The translations under genes were made by a program, and so were the position numbers. From a bacterium (GTDB lineage: Bacteria > SZUA-182 > DTGQ01), in the NCBI GenBank assembly GCA_023512255.1, contig JAILZY010000137.1:1-6814 (forward strand): 6,814 bases of DNA. The letters run 5' to 3'. Numbering within the stretch: the stretch's first letter is position 1; each line of letters begins with the position of its first letter. The notes beneath the pieces were generated by a model. It did not search any database, was not told the origin of the DNA, and was given only the letters and a program-made list of their open reading frames with translations. Below are positions 113 through 6,814 of this stretch, piece after piece.

Positions 113-898
113 TTAACCATTAATGGCCAGCCTGGAATCCAAAAATAGCTTGATTTTTTCTATTTCTCCAACCACCGCTCTACAGGCGGGAAAGGGGGAT
201 CTGCCCTGAGCATCGGCTTCAACCAGCTCCCAATCGAATGGCAGAGAGCCGATAAGCTCAAAATCAGGCAATTGACTGACAATAAAATCCCGATCCTTAG
301 AATGGCGCACCTTATTGGCTACTAAAAAAATTTGCGAAATCCCAATCTCAAAAGCTAAACGACGGATATCCTTGGCCGTCTGAAGACTCCGATGACCCGG
401 CTCAACCACAACCAGAAGAGCATTGACCGCCTTGGCTGTCCCTCTGCCCAGATGCTCAATGCCTGCCTCCATGTCCAAAATCAAGACCTCATCCTGTCTC
501 AGCAACAGATGAGTTACCAAGGCCTTGATAAACGTATTCTCAGGACAATAACAGCCACTGCCGCCAGGCTTGGGTGTTCCAAGAGCCAGCAGCAAAATAT
601 TCTCAAACCGTACCCCGAACCGCTCAGCCACATCATCCACCGAAGGATTGATCTTAAAGAACCCTCCCCCTGCTCCTGGACGCGCTCCTGTGCGCTCCTC
701 AATCAGAGAGGTTAGGGTACTAAGCGGCTGAATTTTAGCCACCTCCGATTCTGGAAAACCAATAGCTGCGGCCAAATTAGCGTCAGGGTCAGCATCAATG
801 GCTAAAACCCTACGCCCTTGCTGCGAATAAAGCCTGGCCAAAATGGCCGACACAGTCGTTTTACCAACTCCACCTTTACCAGTAACTGCAATTTTCAC
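113..898 (-). CDS. cooC: CooC/AcsF-type nickel-insertion ATPase (CODH/ACS maturation factor)
   Basis: A 261-residue MinD/ParA-like P-loop ATPase. The deviant Walker A motif GKGGVGKTT is at residues 7-15, with signature Lys8 and Lys13. The IDADPDAN segment with Asp37 follows. A Cys-Tyr-Cys pair (Cys116, Cys118) sits in GSGCYCPEN, and the Walker B-like LILDMEAGIEHLGRGT spans 139-154. In characterised CooC proteins the CxC pair binds nickel at the dimer interface, and ATP hydrolysis drives nickel insertion into carbon monoxide dehydrogenase or acetyl-CoA synthase in the cytoplasm. The start is GTG, chosen because the family begins right at M-K-I-A-V-x-G-K-G-G; AAGGAG lies 12 nt upstream (911-916). 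It follows the IclR gene on the same strand with a 61-bp gap and no clear terminator between them, so co-transcription is likely. No CODH subunit is visible; one could lie further left. CooC versus AcsF cannot be decided here. Confidence 0.9.
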   Translation of the reverse strand: MKIAVTGKGGVGKTTVSAILARLYSQQGRRVLAIDADPDANLAAAIGFPESEVAKIQPLSTLTSLIEERTGARPGAGGGFFKINPSVDDVAERFGVRFENILLLALGTPKPGGSGCYCPENTFIKALVTHLLLRQDEVLILDMEAGIEHLGRGTAKAVNALLVVVEPGHRSLQTAKDIRRLAFEIGISQIFLVANKVRHSKDRDFIVSQLPDFELIGSLPFDWELVEADAQGRSPFPACRAVVGEIEKIKLFLDSRLAING

Positions 899-959
899 AA
901 TACCTTGAGACTCCTTAGATTGTAGTATTCCCCCTTGGCCTCACCAAAAACTCTAATTT

Positions 960-1778
960 TTAGGAAGACTCTACACCATACCCAAGACGGCGGGAAATCT
1001 CCATGGCAGCATTTTTGACCAGCGGGACCAGTTCCTTCTCGATTCTATCGTTAGACATACGATTCACAGGGCCGGAAATGCAAACGCCTGCCACCACGTT
1101 CTCAGTATAGTCCCAAACAGGTGCGCCAACACACTTGACATCCTCTTCATATTCTTCATTATCAATGGCATAGCCCTGCTTACGCACCATCTCAAGATGC
1201 TTTAGCATCTCACTTTCAGACACAATGGTGTTTTGGGTATACCTTTTTAGCCCTACCTCCTTGAGGAGTTTGCGAATTTCCTCAGGAGACTTATACGCTA
1301 CCTGAACTTTTCCGGCTGAGGTGCAAAACAAAGAAGCCCGACGACCAATCATAGGAACAATTCGAACCGGACGGCAAGTTTCCATCATATCAACATAGAC
1401 AACCTCTCCACGATCACATACAGATAGATAAGCAGTTTCCATAGTCTTGGTCGCCAATCTATCGAGGACATCATGAGCCTGACTGACCAGCCCCATTCTC
1501 CGCAGGTAGGCTTGCCCGAGTTCAAGACATCTCAATCCTAGCCGATAGTTACCAGTGACAGGATTTTGTTCAATATAACCTTGATAGGACAAGGTGGTGA
1601 GTAGCCGAAAGACATTATTTTTAGGTAATTTTAGTCGATAACTTAGGGTGGTAACTCCTAACTCTTTCTCGTTGCTCAGAATGAAAACGTTAAAGACGTC
1701 AAGAGCACGAACTACGGACCGGATTAAATAATCATAAATATCTCTTTTCTTCGTCTCGCTCTTCTTCATCTCACCCAT
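960..1778 (-). CDS. IclR-family transcriptional regulator
   Basis: A 272-residue protein with the usual IclR layout and length. An N-terminal winged helix-turn-helix lies at about residues 20-82 (RALDVFNVF, then LSYRLKLPKNNVFRLLTTL as the recognition region, then GYIEQNPVTGNYRLG as the wing). A C-terminal GAF-like effector-binding domain covers about 96-268. The family signature is seen as GYAIDNEEYEEDVKCVGAPV (about 202-221), with Cys216 in the usual place. IclR proteins bind palindromic operators as dimers or tetramers, sense small carboxylic or aromatic metabolites, and often autoregulate. The effector cannot be read from sequence. The first ATG (1778) has AAGG only about 3 nt upstream; the fourth codon (ATG at 1769) is better spaced from the same AAGG, so the true start may be 9 nt later. 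It is likely to be the first gene of a unit with the downstream CooC gene. Confidence 0.92.
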   Translation of the reverse strand: MGEMKKSETKKRDIYDYLIRSVVRALDVFNVFILSNEKELGVTTLSYRLKLPKNNVFRLLTTLSYQGYIEQNPVTGNYRLGLRCLELGQAYLRRMGLVSQAHDVLDRLATKTMETAYLSVCDRGEVVYVDMMETCRPVRIVPMIGRRASLFCTSAGKVQVAYKSPEEIRKLLKEVGLKRYTQNTIVSESEMLKHLEMVRKQGYAIDNEEYEEDVKCVGAPVWDYTENVVAGVCISGPVNRMSNDRIEKELVPLVKNAAMEISRRLGYGVESS

Positions 1779-1802
1779 TAACCTTTTTCAGTCTACTGTA
1801 GA

Positions 1803-1859
1803 AAGCCTTTCCTGTGATTGCCCTATCCAGCAGAAGCTTGCCTGGTTGCCCCTATCCAG
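1803..1859. repeat. Imperfect 27-28 bp tandem duplication in the iclR leader
   Basis: The segments 1803-1830 and 1834-1859 align with small gaps: both begin AAGC, pass through CCTG and end TTGCCC(C)TATCCAG. The second unit continues into a small hairpin, CCCCT-ATCC-AGGGG (1849-1862). On the minus strand these lie just upstream of the iclR start, inside the long leader expected from the promoter at 2018-2046. Role unknown. Confidence 0.6.
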
Positions 1860-1907
1860 GGGAGAGCGATCTTGTCCCAACTTCCGGCAAGCAGATTTTA
1901 GAGCCTA

Positions 1908-1956
1908 TACTAAGAGTACTAAGAGCCTACTATTAGGAAGATCCTTGTACTAAGAC
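1908..1956. repeat. Three short TACTAAGA repeats upstream of iclR
   Basis: TACTAAGAG occurs back to back at 1908-1916 and 1917-1925, and TACTAAGAC at 1948-1956. The first pair is bracketed by two GAGCCTA copies (1901-1907 and 1923-1929). They could be binding sites for a regulator or remnants of local duplication; nothing more can be said. Confidence 0.45.
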
Positions 1957-2017
1957 ACCAGGATAATTGCTAACTTGCAGGTAGTTTTATGAACAGCTTC
2001 TACCAGAGGTAAGAGGC

Positions 2018-2046
2018 AGTTTAACACGCTGTTTTATTCTTGTCAA
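2018..2046 (-). promoter_or_regulatory. Candidate sigma70-type promoter for the iclR-cooC unit
   Basis: Read on the minus strand, a perfect -35 box TTGACA (2041-2046) is followed after exactly 17 nt by TAAACT (2018-2023), which matches four of six consensus -10 bases including the key T, A and final T. Transcription would start near 2011 and leave a leader of about 230 nt before the IclR start codon. No better promoter is visible closer to the gene. Confidence 0.5.
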
Positions 2047-2049
2047 GAA
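2037..2049. promoter_or_regulatory. Perfect 13-bp palindrome over the -35 box, candidate operator
   Basis: TTCTTG-T-CAAGAA is a perfect dyad that contains the TTGACA -35 hexamer of the minus-strand promoter. An IclR-family dimer bound here would compete with RNA polymerase, which suits autoregulation of the adjacent regulator. Next to it, AAAAATA-CC-TATTTTT (2048-2063) forms a second AT-rich dyad. The protein that binds is an inference from position. Confidence 0.4.
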
Positions 2050-2324
2050 AAATACCTATTTTTTCAAGGAATCAAAAAGCGATCGGCAATGGATGGGAAT
2101 TCTTTAGGTGCGATTAAATTTTGGGGGGATAAAATAGAAAGCTGTTTTAATTTTTCCAAAAATCGTCTCTTAAGATGGGGCAAATCTTAGATGGTTCAAA
2201 ATATTTCACCTTATGATCCACAATCCAAAGCCTTCTACTGACCGAACTCAAGATTACATAATAATTCTATTTGAAATTAGTGAATAATTTAGCGTTACAA
2301 AAACAGATTACATTCCTGTTGACT

Positions 2325-2387: not shown

Positions 2388-2450
2388 AGGTTTTTAATCT
2401 TTGATGGCCAGGTTTTAATCTTTGATGGCTTCGATTATACTTTGATCGCT
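2388..2450. repeat. Tandem ~21-bp units (two good copies, one degenerate)
   Basis: The units 2388-2409 and 2410-2430 are nearly identical, sharing TTTTAATCTTTGATGGC after AGG, with one extra T in the first. A third, degenerate unit ends in TTTGATCGCT at 2450. The spacing of about 21 bp equals two helical turns, so all copies face the same side of the DNA. They lie about 40 bp left of the ~74-bp inverted repeat. Confidence 0.65.
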
Positions 2451-2476
2451 CTTATATATCAGACACCATAAACCCT
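2446..2476. repeat. Degenerate partial copy of the ~74-bp repeat
   Basis: TCGCTCTTAT at 2446-2455, a CCAT shortly after, and AACCCT at 2471-2476 match in order and orientation the right-hand repeat copy beginning at 6741, but with an internal deletion and several mismatches. Its ACCATAAACCCT (2465-2476) also recurs at 2488-2499 inside the left intact copy. This makes the left boundary a partial inverted pair. Confidence 0.4.
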
Positions 2477-2486
2477 ATATCAGAAC

Positions 2487-2561
2487 AACCATAAACCCTC
2501 GAAGGGGCTTAGCTCTTTATTAGGGTTATGTCTCTCAATGGTAGCTAATAAATAAGAGCGA
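2487..2561 (-). repeat. Left copy of a ~74-bp inverted repeat flanking the sugar operon
   Basis: This 75-bp segment is the reverse complement of 6741-6814 with a single one-base indel (CTCTTTATTA here, CTCTTATTA in the other copy). It has internal dyad structure. GCTCTTTATTAG (2512-2523) pairs with CTAATAAATAAGAGC (2545-2559) with a 3-nt bulge around a 21-nt loop, and CCCT-CGA-AGGG (2496-2506) makes a second small hairpin. Identity with the right copy stops at 2562 on the inner side; the outer limit cannot be set because the right copy reaches the window end. Confidence 0.95.
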
Positions 2562-2577
2562 CTTTGATTATATTTTC

Positions 2578-2606
2578 TTGGTTATTTCTTATAATCCTGG
2601 TATAAT
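2578..2606 (+). promoter_or_regulatory. Extended -10 promoter for the four-gene sugar operon
   Basis: TTGGTT (2578-2583) is separated by 17 nt from a perfect -10 TATAAT (2601-2606), which is preceded by TGG, forming the extended -10 motif TGnTATAAT. A second TATAAT at 2590-2595 has no suitable -35. Transcription would begin near 2613 and give a leader of about 57 nt. The promoter lies just inside the left inverted repeat, so the operon carries its own promoter within the flanked unit. Confidence 0.65.
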
Positions 2607-2669
2607 TACCTTGATTTATTATATAAGCCTCAGCTACTTACATAATTACCATAGATACTTCTGCACAAC

Positions 2670-3677
2670 ATGCTGATCACTATAGTTATCCCGGTATATA
2701 ACGGCGCCCGAACTATCAGGGGGTTGGTCGATAAGCTCATAGCTACTGTGGGCAGTGAGGAGCTCCAAATTGTCCTAGTGAATGATGGAAGCCAGGACAA
2801 CAGTCAGGAAGTCTGTCGCTCCCTGAGTAGAGAGTATGGGCCGATAGTCAAATTCATTGACCTGGCCAAAAACTTCGGCGAGCACAACGCGGTCATGGCT
2901 GGTCTACATTACGCCGAAGGTGACTATGTGGTCATCATGGATGATGATTTCCAGAATCCTCCACAGGAGGTGCCTCTTCTGGTTCAGGAAGCGCTCAGGC
3001 ATAACTATGATATTGTCTATACCTACTATCCTAAAAAGGAGCATTCATGGCTGCGGAATCTAGGCAGTTGGTTCAATGACCAGGTGGCTAACATCCTGCT
3101 AGAGAAGCCTCGAGGGCTTTATCTTTCAAGCTTCAAGTGTCTGAGCCGCTTTGTGGTCAATGAGATTATCAAATATAGCGGACCATATCCCTACATTGAT
3201 GGTCTGGCCCTTCGGTGTACTCGAAATATCGGACGGGTTCAGGTCCAGCACAACAAACGCTTGGAAGGAAGATCAGGCTACACCTTCCGCAAACTGGTCC
3301 GGCTGTGGCTTAATATGTTTGTGAATTTTTCGGTGATGCCTCTTCGGGTCAGCTCCATGCTGGGGCTGCTGTTCACTCTTGTTGGCTTTGTTCTTGGGGT
3401 TCTAGTGATTGTAGAAAAGCTGTCTAATCCGGCGACACCGCTTGGTTGGGCATCGCTGATCGTTACGGTTATAGCCTTCTCCGGCGTCCAGCTTGTCATG
3501 CTTGGCCTTGTGGGCGAATACCTTGGCCGCATGTTCCTGACCAATAACCAAACCCCGCAGTTTATAGTTCGGGGGGTGTACCAAGAAGAGGCAAATCGGG
3601 GAGGTTCCCAGGAAGAGGCGAAATGGGGTACTAAAAATGGCAGCCATGAACAAAATGAATCTCCAAGAGAAGCTTAG
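2670..3677 (+). CDS. Family 2 glycosyltransferase, ArnC/GtrB-like polyprenyl-phosphate sugar transferase
   Basis: A 335-residue GT-A fold enzyme. The N-terminus ITIVIPVYNGA is typical of GT2. VNDGSQDNS (37-45) and MDDDFQNPP (90-98) carry the nucleotide- and metal-binding aspartates. KNFGEHNAVMAGL (67-79) is characteristic of the ArnC/GtrB/DPM1 group, and GRSGYTF (200-206) sits where ArnC has GESKYSF. Two membrane helices follow (about 228-248 and 260-281), then GEYLGR and TPQFIVRG as in ArnC. Such enzymes sit on the inner membrane face and transfer one sugar from a nucleotide sugar to undecaprenyl phosphate. The start fits the family although no Shine-Dalgarno is visible upstream. The hydrophilic tail after residue 304 contains a 9-residue repeat and overlaps the next gene by 41 bp. 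The sugar is unknown; neighbours suggest an amino sugar. Confidence 0.9.
   Translation: MLITIVIPVYNGARTIRGLVDKLIATVGSEELQIVLVNDGSQDNSQEVCRSLSREYGPIVKFIDLAKNFGEHNAVMAGLHYAEGDYVVIMDDDFQNPPQEVPLLVQEALRHNYDIVYTYYPKKEHSWLRNLGSWFNDQVANILLEKPRGLYLSSFKCLSRFVVNEIIKYSGPYPYIDGLALRCTRNIGRVQVQHNKRLEGRSGYTFRKLVRLWLNMFVNFSVMPLRVSSMLGLLFTLVGFVLGVLVIVEKLSNPATPLGWASLIVTVIAFSGVQLVMLGLVGEYLGRMFLTNNQTPQFIVRGVYQEEANRGGSQEEAKWGTKNGSHEQNESPREA
3582..3628 (+). repeat. 27-bp period duplication in the glycosyltransferase tail
   Basis: Two 20-bp units, 3582-3601 and 3609-3628, share CA(A/G)GAAGAGGC followed by AAAT-like sequence and GGGG. They encode QEEANRGGS and QEEAKWGTK at residues 305-322. The GGGG of the second unit is the only purine-rich stretch suitably placed before the next gene's ATG at 3637. 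Confidence 0.6.
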
Positions 3678-4656
3678 CTGCTTTGAAGGCAAGGATATCC
3701 TGATTACCGGAGGGCTGGGGTTTATCGGCAGCAATCTGGCCATCCGGCTCATCGAGCTTGGGGCTAAGGTAACCCTCCTTGATGCCATGATCGAGGATCA
3801 TGGAGGGAATCTCTTTAATATCGAACCGATTAAAGATCAGGTCAGGGTCAACTTTAGCGATGTTAGGGATGAAAACAGCCTCAGATATTTAGTGCGTGGC
3901 CGTGACTACATCTTTCACCTGGCTGGACAGAATGATCATGTCCTCAGTCTGCAAAACCCCTTCCCCGATATCGACATCAATATCAAAGGAGCAGCTATTC
4001 TGCTTGAGGCCTGCAAACGCTATAATCCGTCGGCCAGGCTTATCTACACCGGAACACGGGGTGAGTATGGTCCTGCTGTCAAGTTGCCAGTCAGTGAGGA
4101 TATGCCGATCAACCCTAAGGGCATTTATGAGCTGTCGAGCCTCACGGCTCAAAAGCTGTTTCAGATTTATCATCACAACCATGCTATCAGGTCTATAACC
4201 TTACGGCTGACCAATATTTACGGTCAGCGGGCCCAGATGAAGCACAATCGCTTCGGCGTAGCCAACTGGTTTATCCGCCTGGCTATTGATAATGAAACCA
4301 TAAAGGTTTTTGGCGACGGCTCCCTGCTGCGGGACTTTCTCTACATTGATGATACGGTTGAAGCTATCCTGCTTTGCGCAGCCACTGAAGAGGCCTACGG
4401 CGAGGTATTCAATGTCGGCAATGATCATCCATCAAGCTTTCTTGAGCTAGCCAAAACCATCATTGAAGTGGCTGGAACTGGCCGGTGGGAATTTGCTCCT
4501 TTTAGCCCAGAGCGGGCGGCTCAAGAACCAGGCCATTTCTATTCGGATATTTCTAAAATCAGGCGAATAGTTGGCTGGGAGCCAAAATCATCCCTAGCTG
4601 AAGGAATCAGAAAGACGGTGGAATATTATAGGCAGTATAAAACTCACTATTGGTAA
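3637..4656 (+). CDS. NAD-dependent epimerase/dehydratase (extended SDR) lacking the catalytic lysine
   Basis: A 339-residue extended short-chain dehydrogenase/reductase. ITGGLGFIG (23-31) is the Rossmann GxxGxxG, DYIFHLAGQ (90-98) is the usual cofactor-domain strand, and YTGTRGEYG (137-145) is the catalytic Ser/Thr region. LRLTNIYGQR (189-198) and FGDGSLLRDFLYIDD (225-239) are substrate-domain signatures of sugar-nucleotide epimerases, dehydratases and decarboxylases. At the catalytic YxxxK position the sequence is Tyr164-Glu-Leu-Ser-Ser168, so lysine is replaced by serine (AGC, 4138-4140). It probably acts on an NDP-sugar, but the reaction cannot be named and may be altered. The first ATG (3637) has GGGG 8 nt upstream; ATGs at 3646 and 3655 are alternatives, since the Rossmann fold begins about residue 19. 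It overlaps the glycosyltransferase by 41 bp in another frame, which implies translational coupling. Confidence 0.88.
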   Translation: MAAMNKMNLQEKLSCFEGKDILITGGLGFIGSNLAIRLIELGAKVTLLDAMIEDHGGNLFNIEPIKDQVRVNFSDVRDENSLRYLVRGRDYIFHLAGQNDHVLSLQNPFPDIDINIKGAAILLEACKRYNPSARLIYTGTRGEYGPAVKLPVSEDMPINPKGIYELSSLTAQKLFQIYHHNHAIRSITLRLTNIYGQRAQMKHNRFGVANWFIRLAIDNETIKVFGDGSLLRDFLYIDDTVEAILLCAATEEAYGEVFNVGNDHPSSFLELAKTIIEVAGTGRWEFAPFSPERAAQEPGHFYSDISKIRRIVGWEPKSSLAEGIRKTVEYYRQYKTHYW

Positions 4657-4665
4657 GTTTCTAGT

Positions 4666-4693
4666 AAATTTGGGTAAGTTTTTTCCTAAATTT
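4666..4693 (+). other. AT-rich inverted repeat in the epimerase-aminotransferase gap
   Basis: AAATTTGGG (4666-4674) and CCTAAATTT (4685-4693) form an imperfect dyad with a T-rich loop. A short direct repeat GGTAAGTTT (4652-4660 and 4673-4681) overlaps it. There is no T-tract after the stem, so this is not a convincing terminator. It may be an mRNA processing or stability element, or meaningless in AT-rich sequence. Confidence 0.3.
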
Positions 4694-4696
4694 CAC

Positions 4697-4711
4697 TCCT
4701 ACTGAGTAGGA
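4697..4711 (+). promoter_or_regulatory. Perfect palindrome that includes the aminotransferase ribosome binding site
   Basis: TCCTACT-G-AGTAGGA is a perfect 7-bp dyad. In RNA it can fold as a 6-bp stem with a TGA loop. Its right arm holds AGGA (4708-4711), which lies 9 nt before the aminotransferase ATG and is the only good Shine-Dalgarno there. Folding would hide the site. A DNA-binding role is equally possible. Confidence 0.45.
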
Positions 4712-4720
4712 CCTGCAAAG

Positions 4721-5869
4721 ATGGAGATGCAGATTCCATTCTTTGAGCTAAAAAAACAATATCTTAGTATCCAAGAAGAAATCGATCAGGCTGTGGCCAG
4801 GGTGTTGCAGAGCGGCTGGTACATTCTGGGCAGGGAAGTAGAGGCTTTTGAAACCGAGTTTGCTGCCTACTGCCAGGCTCGCGCCTGTGTTGGCGTAGCC
4901 TCAGGGACCGATGCTATAAGACTGGCCCTTACGGCCTGCGGAATTGGGGCAGGAGATGAGGTCATCACCGTCCCCAATACTGCCGTGCCGACAATAGTGG
5001 CCATCTGCCTGGCCGGAGCCAAGCCGGTACTGGTCGATGTTGATCCTGCGACCATGACTATGGACCCTGAGCGGCTCAAAGCCTATCTGGAGACTCAAAG
5101 TACCCCCCTGAAAGCCAAAGCAATCATTCCGGTGCACCTGTACGGCCAGCCCGCTGATATGGAGCCCATCCTTGAAATAGCTCGATTCTACGGCCTTCGG
5201 GTAATTGAGGATGCCTGTCAGGCCCACGGAGCCGAATATCAGGGAATCAAAGTGGGGAGTTTGGGTGATGCCGGCTGCTTCAGCTTTTATCCGACTAAAA
5301 ACCTCGGCGGCTACGGCGATGGGGGAATGGTGGCGGTGAATGATGAAAAGCTGGCTAGTCGCTTGCGGATGCTTAGAAATTATGGAGAAGAGAAAAAATA
5401 TTACAACGCCATCTTAGGCTGTAACAGCCGGCTAGATGAATTGCAGGCCGCTATTTTGCGAGTTAAATTGCGCCACCTCGATGCCTGGAACAGCCAAAGA
5501 AAAATCATAGCCGCACGCTATCACTCGCTCCTGTCCGACACTGATTTGATTCTGCCCACCGAGGCATCCTATGCCAAACACATCTGGCACCTCTATGTGG
5601 TCCGCTCACCAAACCGCGACCGGCTGCAGCAGCACTTAGCAGATCATGGTATCTTGACCAGTATCCATTATCCGCTCCCTGTTCACTACCAGAAAGCCTA
5701 TCAGTGGTTAGACTATCCAAGGGGCGCCTTTCCCGTAGCTGAGCGCTGCTCGACCGAGATTCTTTCCCTGCCCCTCTATCCTGAGCTCACTGATGAGCAG
5801 ATCGAATACATTGGCCAGGTTATCCGGCAGGCTAAAGCTAGCGGGGGGAAGGAAAGGAGGGGTAGATGA
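4721..5869 (+). CDS. DegT/DnrJ/EryC1-family PLP-dependent sugar aminotransferase
   Basis: A 382-residue fold-type I aminotransferase of the usual family length. The N-terminus [17 protein letters not shown] is typical of nucleotide-sugar aminotransferases. [10 protein letters not shown] (61-70) binds the cofactor phosphate, EDACQAHGA (163-171) has Asp164 for the pyridine nitrogen, and [15 protein letters not shown] (188-202) has the Schiff-base Lys193. [12 protein letters not shown] (233-244) and the C-terminal [13 protein letters not shown] (315-327) complete the family pattern. These cytoplasmic enzymes transaminate a keto group on an NDP-hexose, usually with glutamate. The pattern recalls the QdtB/FdtB/ArnB group, but position specificity cannot be read. 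All catalytic residues I can check are present. It lies 64 bp after the epimerase, the largest gap in the operon, and it ends in frame with the methyltransferase three codons before that gene's start. Confidence 0.93.
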
Positions 5870-5875
5870 GAATTG
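5854..5875 (+). promoter_or_regulatory. Ribosome binding site and TTG start of the methyltransferase
   Basis: AAGGAGG (5854-5860) lies 12 nt before the TTG at 5873. An ATG at 5866-5868 overlaps the aminotransferase TGA (ATGA) at better spacing, but it is out of frame and stops after six codons (TGA 5884-5886). The TTG is chosen because conserved family residues EYxxMFxLE begin only four codons later, and an in-frame TGA (5867-5869) excludes an earlier start. Confidence 0.65.
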
Positions 5876-6706
5876 GAAAGAGATGAATATGCAGCCATGT
5901 TCAGGCTGGAGGATGATTACTGGTGGTATCAAGGATTGCGGCAGATCACCTTTCACTTCCTAGATAAATTTATTAGCCAACAAAAATTGCAGCAGCCAGG
6001 ATCAGGGGCTAAGATTTTGGATGCCGGATGTGGGACTGGAAAGCTACTTGAGGAATGCAGCCAGATCGGCAAGATGATGAGAGGCTATCGGGCCTTTGGG
6101 TTTGAATTTTCTGAATACGCCCTTCCATTTCTGAAGATGCGGGGGCTGAGAAAGCTCGTGCAGGCCTCGATTTGCCAACTACCTTTTCGCAGCCTGAGCT
6201 TTCAGGCACTTATCTGCCTTGATGTTTTGTGTCATACTGGAGTGGACAGTGACCGCCAAGCGCTGGTTGAAATTCACCGTGTGCTAGAGCCAGGAGGACT
6301 GGTGATTATCAACCTTCCGGCTTTTGAATTTTTGCGAAGCTCACACGACTTTGCTGTTCATACAAGGCGAAGGTACAGGCTGAAGGAAGTGCGACAGAAG
6401 CTGCATGAGTGTGGGTTTTCTATCAAAGTGCTAACATACCGAAATACTCTTCTCTTCCCACTGGCCGCGGCGGTCCGACTAATCAGGCGGGCAGCGATCT
6501 TTGGGGCAGGCAGAGGCAGTCAACAGAGGGGCAAGGAGTGCAAAAAATCAGACCTTCGACCTCTGCCATCATCAATTAACCAACTGCTGTACGGCATCCT
6601 GGCCTTTGAGAACGCGCTCTTGGCCCGCGGTCTGACCTTTCCCTTCGGGCTGTCAGTGTTTTTTGTGGCCGTCAAAGATGGTGATAAGGAAGGCAAAAGA
6701 AAGTAG
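5873..6706 (+). CDS. Class I SAM-dependent methyltransferase of a polysaccharide/sugar locus
   Basis: A 277-residue Rossmann-fold methyltransferase. The N-terminal EYAAMFRLEDDYWWYQGLR (5-23) is a hallmark of a group common in polysaccharide gene clusters. Motif I ILDAGCGTGKLLE is at 48-60 and the acidic ribose-binding Glu78 follows the second strand. LICLDVLCHTG (113-123) contains motif II, and EPGGLVIINLPAF (139-151) is motif III. HDFAVHTRRRYRL (158-170) and the end TFPFGLSVFFVAVK (255-268) also fit that group. It probably transfers a methyl group from S-adenosylmethionine to a sugar hydroxyl or amine; whether on the NDP-sugar or the lipid-linked product is unknown. The last gene of the operon, it ends with TAG directly followed by in-frame TAA. 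The stop is 34 bp before the right inverted repeat. Confidence 0.87.
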   Translation: MERDEYAAMFRLEDDYWWYQGLRQITFHFLDKFISQQKLQQPGSGAKILDAGCGTGKLLEECSQIGKMMRGYRAFGFEFSEYALPFLKMRGLRKLVQASICQLPFRSLSFQALICLDVLCHTGVDSDRQALVEIHRVLEPGGLVIINLPAFEFLRSSHDFAVHTRRRYRLKEVRQKLHECGFSIKVLTYRNTLLFPLAAAVRLIRRAAIFGAGRGSQQRGKECKKSDLRPLPSSINQLLYGILAFENALLARGLTFPFGLSVFFVAVKDGDKEGKRK

Positions 6707-6740
6707 TAAGCTAAGGCCAACAATATATGTCAAAATATTT

Positions 6741-6814
6741 TCGCTCTTATTTATTAGCTACCATTGAGAGACATAACCCTAATAAGAGCTAAGCCCCTTC
6801 GAGGGTTTATGGTT
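6741..6814 (+). repeat. Right copy of the ~74-bp inverted repeat, reaching the window end
   Basis: This is the reverse complement of 2487-2561 with a single-base deletion. GCTCTTATTTATTAG (6743-6757) pairs with CTAATAAGAGC (6779-6789) with a 4-nt bulge, and CCCT-TCG-AGGG (6796-6806) follows, then TTTAT. Placed after the last stop codon of the operon, it could also act as a weak terminator or mRNA 3' end structure, though no proper T-tract follows the long stem. The repeat may continue past the last base given. Confidence 0.95.

Follow-up and report, generated by a model that had tools for sequence, protein, structure and literature searches.

A four-gene sugar-modification operon lying, most probably by coincidence, between two insertions of a species-specific MITE family

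Introduction

The closest described counterparts of the repeats analysed here are RUP of Streptococcus pneumoniae, a 107 bp element present in 108 copies (PMC2229807, PMC10969869), and the Correia/NEMIS elements of Neisseria. Like these, the repeats of this study are non-coding sequences of ~100-150 bp with terminal inverted repeats (TIRs), target duplications and stable hairpins, and they occur in about a hundred or more mostly intergenic copies for which mobilisation in trans is assumed. They differ from RUP and Correia/NEMIS in sequence, in having TCGCTCTTAT ends rather than TA-ended termini, and in a target duplication of 6 bp instead of TA; moreover, no parent IS was identified for them. 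MITEs can also flank other genes, as in the Acinetobacter integrons that lie between identical MITEs (PMC10969869) and in the composite transposon containing MITEAba12 (PMC6382973). The locus described here resembles such composite units in that two MITE copies surround unrelated genes. In contrast to them, the two MITEs are flanked by separate target duplications, and the genes between them are part of a conserved chromosomal cluster extending beyond the right copy.

This cluster recalls in outline the arn aminoarabinose operon (ArnC, ArnA, ArnB, ArnT), with a polyprenyl-phosphate glycosyltransferase, an SDR protein, a DegT aminotransferase and a PMT-type membrane protein. Unlike the arn operon, however, it encodes a methyltransferase and no formyltransferase, none of its NCBIfam scores comes anywhere near the equivalog cut-off, and the PMT match is weak. 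An earlier note, made from the sequence alone, had proposed that this operon could be a non-autonomous mobile cassette or an invertible segment, or could have two copies of a dispersed palindromic element on either side by chance. Here we analyse the locus in its genome and in relatives.

Results

Structure of the window and its two inverted repeats

The window, meaning the whole stretch of DNA analysed, is an entire contig (C165) of 6814 bp from a draft genome of 3.83 Mb in 172 contigs; its features are collected in Table 1. Two perfect inverted arms, 2517-2561 with 6741-6785 (45 nt) and 2487-2517 with 6784-6814 (31 nt), join into a single inverted match in which the left copy has one T more. 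This agrees with the earlier description of 2487-2561 and 6741-6814 as inverted copies differing by one base, and the reported absence of a transposase between them was likewise borne out. The length of ~74 bp given for these segments did not hold, as the left copy is a complete element and the right copy is cut at 6814, where the contig ends. Taken on its own, the left copy is an imperfect palindrome.

Table 1. Coordinates of features in the window
Feature	Position	Strand	Remarks
CTTTGA, left target-site duplication of left MITE	2440..2445	.	same 6 bp at 2562-2567
Left MITE, whole copy	2446..2561	+	116 bp, TCGCTCTTAT...ATAAGAGCGA; one T beyond the 115-bp consensus
CTTTGA, right target-site duplication of left MITE	2562..2567	.	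same 6 bp at 2440-2445
Likely sigma-70 promoter	2578..2606	+	TTGGTT, 17-bp spacer, TATAAT; read from sequence; host DNA, outside MITE
GT2 polyprenyl-phosphate glycosyltransferase, ArnC-like	2670..3677	+	Pfam PF00535
NAD-dependent sugar epimerase/dehydratase (SDR)	3637..4656	+	PF01370; G001 orthologue 88% identical
DegT/DnrJ/EryC1-type sugar aminotransferase (PseC/ArnB-like)	4721..5869	+	PF01041, E 3e-120
SAM-dependent methyltransferase, TTG start	5873..6706	+	PF08241; G001 orthologue 66% identical
ATATTT, left target-site duplication of right MITE	6735..6740	.	other half at end of contig C100
Right MITE, inverted, first 74 bp alone	6741..6814	-	cut by contig end

Short-read assemblers break contigs at repeats. 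Besides the window, which stops inside the right repeat copy, seven further contigs (C3, C19, C23, C36, C39, C93 and C100) stop 72-76 bp inside copies of the same element. The exact repeat length of 74 bp is therefore an artefact of the assembler. At its left end (1-104) the window carries another dispersed repeat, unrelated to the first and ~97-104 bp long, with 40 scored copies at 87-99% identity and 131 candidates in the genome, and without a match in G001-G004. Thus, the contig has repeats at both ends.

Just left of the MITE, at 2392-2429, we observed two perfect direct copies of TTTTAATCTTTGATGGC with a start-to-start distance of 21 bp. A third, partial match to TTTTAATCTTTGATGGC (CTTTGAT) overlaps the target duplication of the left MITE.

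A species-specific MITE family

Searching the genome with the repeat yielded 148 first-look candidates and 40 scored copies with 91-98% identity to the copy in the window. The two end sequences gave 196 matches with at most two mismatches, as compared with none for the reversed control. Together, these counts put the copy number at roughly 100-150. From 43 complete copies a consensus of 115 bp was derived, to which the copies have a median identity of 0.965. An exact 6-bp target duplication flanks 31 of these 43 copies, while shuffled flank pairs gave ~1 duplication per set and at most six in any of 1000 shuffles; a stricter, cleaner count found the duplication at 30 of 40 complete copies. The TIRs are 24 bp long and imperfect, with the first 10 bp perfect and four bases different between the two ends. 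None of 40 copies lies within an open reading frame (ORF), although ~73% of the longer sequence stretches is ORF. The element has no ORF of at least 80 aa within 2446-2561, and its 115-bp consensus is too short for a transposase. No match was detected in 39 other genomes, including that of the congener G001, or in Rfam.

By the defining features of MITEs as set out in PMC10969869 and PMC2229807, the repeat is a short (<500 bp) non-coding sequence with TIRs and target duplication, present in a large number of copies that are dispersed and mostly intergenic. We regard it as a species-specific MITE family, whose copy number, ends, duplications, intergenic location and absence from the searched relatives are all direct observations.

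The genome was also searched for a larger element with TCGCTCTTAT ends, using a pattern for the ends without the MITE core, and none was found; the pattern returned internal variants of the MITE, one second element and a few matches that are likely due to chance. The second element (L129 1381-1522, on C90 of the window's genome, G000) is 142 bp long and has the same TCGCTCTTAT ends, a 6-bp duplication (ATTTAA) and a different core. It represents a sister MITE family and is possibly nearer to the missing parent. A search for DDE_Tnp_1 (PF01609) gave three genes, fragmentary or degenerate, without TCGCTCTTAT-type ends. One of the three, an IS4-like gene with a split frame located 43 bp from a MITE, was considered as autonomous partner and rejected because its ends do not match.

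The operon and its promoter

The four genes between the repeats are co-oriented and preceded by a likely promoter. For the glycosyltransferase, the best NCBIfam match is PRK10714 ArnC, with a score far below its cut-off, and the best PDB match is ArnC (9hwj, E 1e-44). The epimerase/dehydratase may start slightly downstream of 3637. A consensus promoter scan did not list the promoter among its sites, and the call depends on conservation: in G001, where there is no MITE, the orthologous operon is preceded by a block with 86% identity to 2571-2607. The promoter is therefore ancestral and was not supplied by the MITE.

Conservation of the operon in relatives

G001, which belongs to the same genus, contains the same four genes in the same order on contig C49, with ~65-88% protein identity and no MITE. 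The operon is followed there by a membrane-protein gene, a PMT_2-like membrane transferase, a PhoB-like regulator and a histidine kinase. Contig C269 of G004, a member of the same order, carries pieces of the glycosyltransferase, dehydratase, aminotransferase and methyltransferase genes that lead directly into a PMT-like gene, again without a MITE. The conserved order of the operon is thus observed directly. Together with the scattered intergenic copies in the window's genome, the stability of the operon in relatives without the element is the outcome that the earlier note had named as speaking against its mobile or invertible unit.

Two peculiarities of the relatives were noted. In a single open frame of G004 C269 (L106 4661-5563), the beginning of the dehydratase runs into the last part of the aminotransferase, suggesting a scaffold or assembly gap or a deletion. 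The membrane-protein gene of G001 (L105 6946-8262 on C49), with a weak match to NF046093, separates the methyltransferase gene from the PMT-like gene; it had no match in G000, in a search run without a positive control, and is also absent at that place in G004. It was probably gained in G001 or lost in the window's genome, and nothing connects this to the MITE.

Upstream of the operon the genomes differ, with IclR and CooC-like genes in the window versus an HD-GYP regulator in G001. The CooC-like ATPase and IclR regulator genes (window 113-2056) are colinear with G001 contig C54 and the operon with C49, indicating a rearrangement between 2056 and 2571. The intact CTTTGA marks the left MITE as a simple insertion, which therefore need not be the cause of this rearrangement. 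Upstream of the IclR gene, a 36-bp block (2021-2056) shows 97% conservation and coincides in part with a promoter-like site on the minus strand.

The right junction

The missing end of the right MITE followed by ATATTT occurs exactly twice in the whole genome, once at a complete copy inside C62 and once at the terminus of C100. Over its final 35 bases the window is identical to the beginning of C100 (reverse complement), and C100 completes both the element and the ATATTT duplication. Its first gene is PMT-like and shares 69% identity with the G001 gene and 49% with the G004 gene, and its second gene is a PhoB-like regulator, 82% identical to that of G001. A join of the window to C100 would thus restore the conserved gene order. 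Note that ATATTT is A/T-rich and occurs at other copies too, and that the 35-bp overlap is common to other contigs ending in a MITE, so that the join, which we infer, rests mainly on synteny. Given this join, the right MITE lies within the cluster, between genes four and five, and what the two MITEs enclose is no natural unit. Accordingly, the earlier view of the repeats as enclosing exactly one promoter and four genes is correct as to content, but the cluster goes on past the right copy with a fifth conserved gene.

Origin of the inverted pair

Very probably, members of one MITE family inserted separately at the two sites, they do not function together as a pair, and the operon lies between them by coincidence. 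With ~100-150 dispersed copies, chance alone should bring some inverted copies close together: a number of 100-145 copies predicts 5-11 inverted neighbours within 4.3 kb, and four other close inverted pairs are found among the listed copies, at distances of 2.1, 2.6, 2.7 and 4.1 kb. If instead the inverted MITEs were the ends of a non-autonomous transposon carrying the four-gene operon, the near-identical repeats on both sides would be accounted for, MITE-flanked integrons and resistance genes would provide precedent (PMC10969869), and the different upstream neighbour of the operon in G001 would fit. The duplications argue otherwise. Instead of a single shared outer duplication there is CTTTGA/CTTTGA around the left copy, as expected of a single insertion, and, given the C100 join, ATATTT/ATATTT around the right copy, the outer right flank being ATATTT and not CTTTGA. 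Nor do the genes move as a unit in the comparison with G001 and G004, where the MITE-free operon runs into the same downstream gene that lies beyond the right MITE here. The proposal of a mobile cassette is thus highly improbable. Flipping of the operon by recombination between the copies, with switching of an envelope sugar modification, is suggested by the near-identical inverted arms and was the other proposal of the earlier note. It is extremely improbable: the promoter is inside the segment, so flipping would leave expression of the four enclosed genes unswitched; an odd number of inversions would split CTTTGA between the copies, whereas it is intact around the left one; there is no recombinase inside; and in G001 the operon has the same order and points the same way with respect to the genes downstream. 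Moreover, with more than 100 equivalent copies no pair is special.

The insertions could also have acquired a regulatory role as RNA or DNA, with the hairpin between genes four and five attenuating or processing the transcript and the left copy insulating the promoter. The operon-transcribed strand of the right copy, represented by the reverse complement of the left copy, has a predicted folding energy of -47.5 kcal/mol (z -6.5), and the left copy stops 16 bp before the conserved -35, both consistent with such a role. However, palindromes fold stably without selection, copies that sit between co-directional genes favor neither orientation (14 versus 13), and Rfam returned no match. We consider co-option unlikely. 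The more specific idea that the right MITE is an RNA attenuator or processing site setting the level of the PMT-like envelope transferase, and that similar MITEs between co-directional genes act likewise throughout the genome, is quite unlikely.

Discussion

Our results favor separate insertion of the two MITEs. A transposase acting in trans would paste the 115-bp palindromic, non-coding element into A/T-rich intergenic DNA, generating a 6-bp target duplication. One copy would have inserted just upstream of the conserved promoter of the operon, and a second, inverted relative to it, between gene four and gene five, the latter encoding the PMT-like membrane glycosyltransferase. We infer mobilisation in trans; the searches for TCGCTCTTAT ends and for DDE_Tnp_1 genes found no partner transposase.

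The conserved cluster probably makes a polyprenyl-phosphate-linked amino sugar, of predicted chemistry, and transfers it to an envelope component. Of the possibilities raised by the earlier note, it is the chance position of the operon, with a dispersed palindromic element on each side, that the scattered copies bear out; the repeat search it had called for, in this genome and in the 39 others, revealed many intergenic copies here and none elsewhere.

In conclusion, the apparent mobile sugar cassette is most probably a coincidence of a MITE-rich draft genome. The MITE family itself, with ~100-150 near-identical copies of a 115-bp element with 6-bp duplications, unseen in the congener, offers a clear-cut example of a recent burst specific to one lineage.
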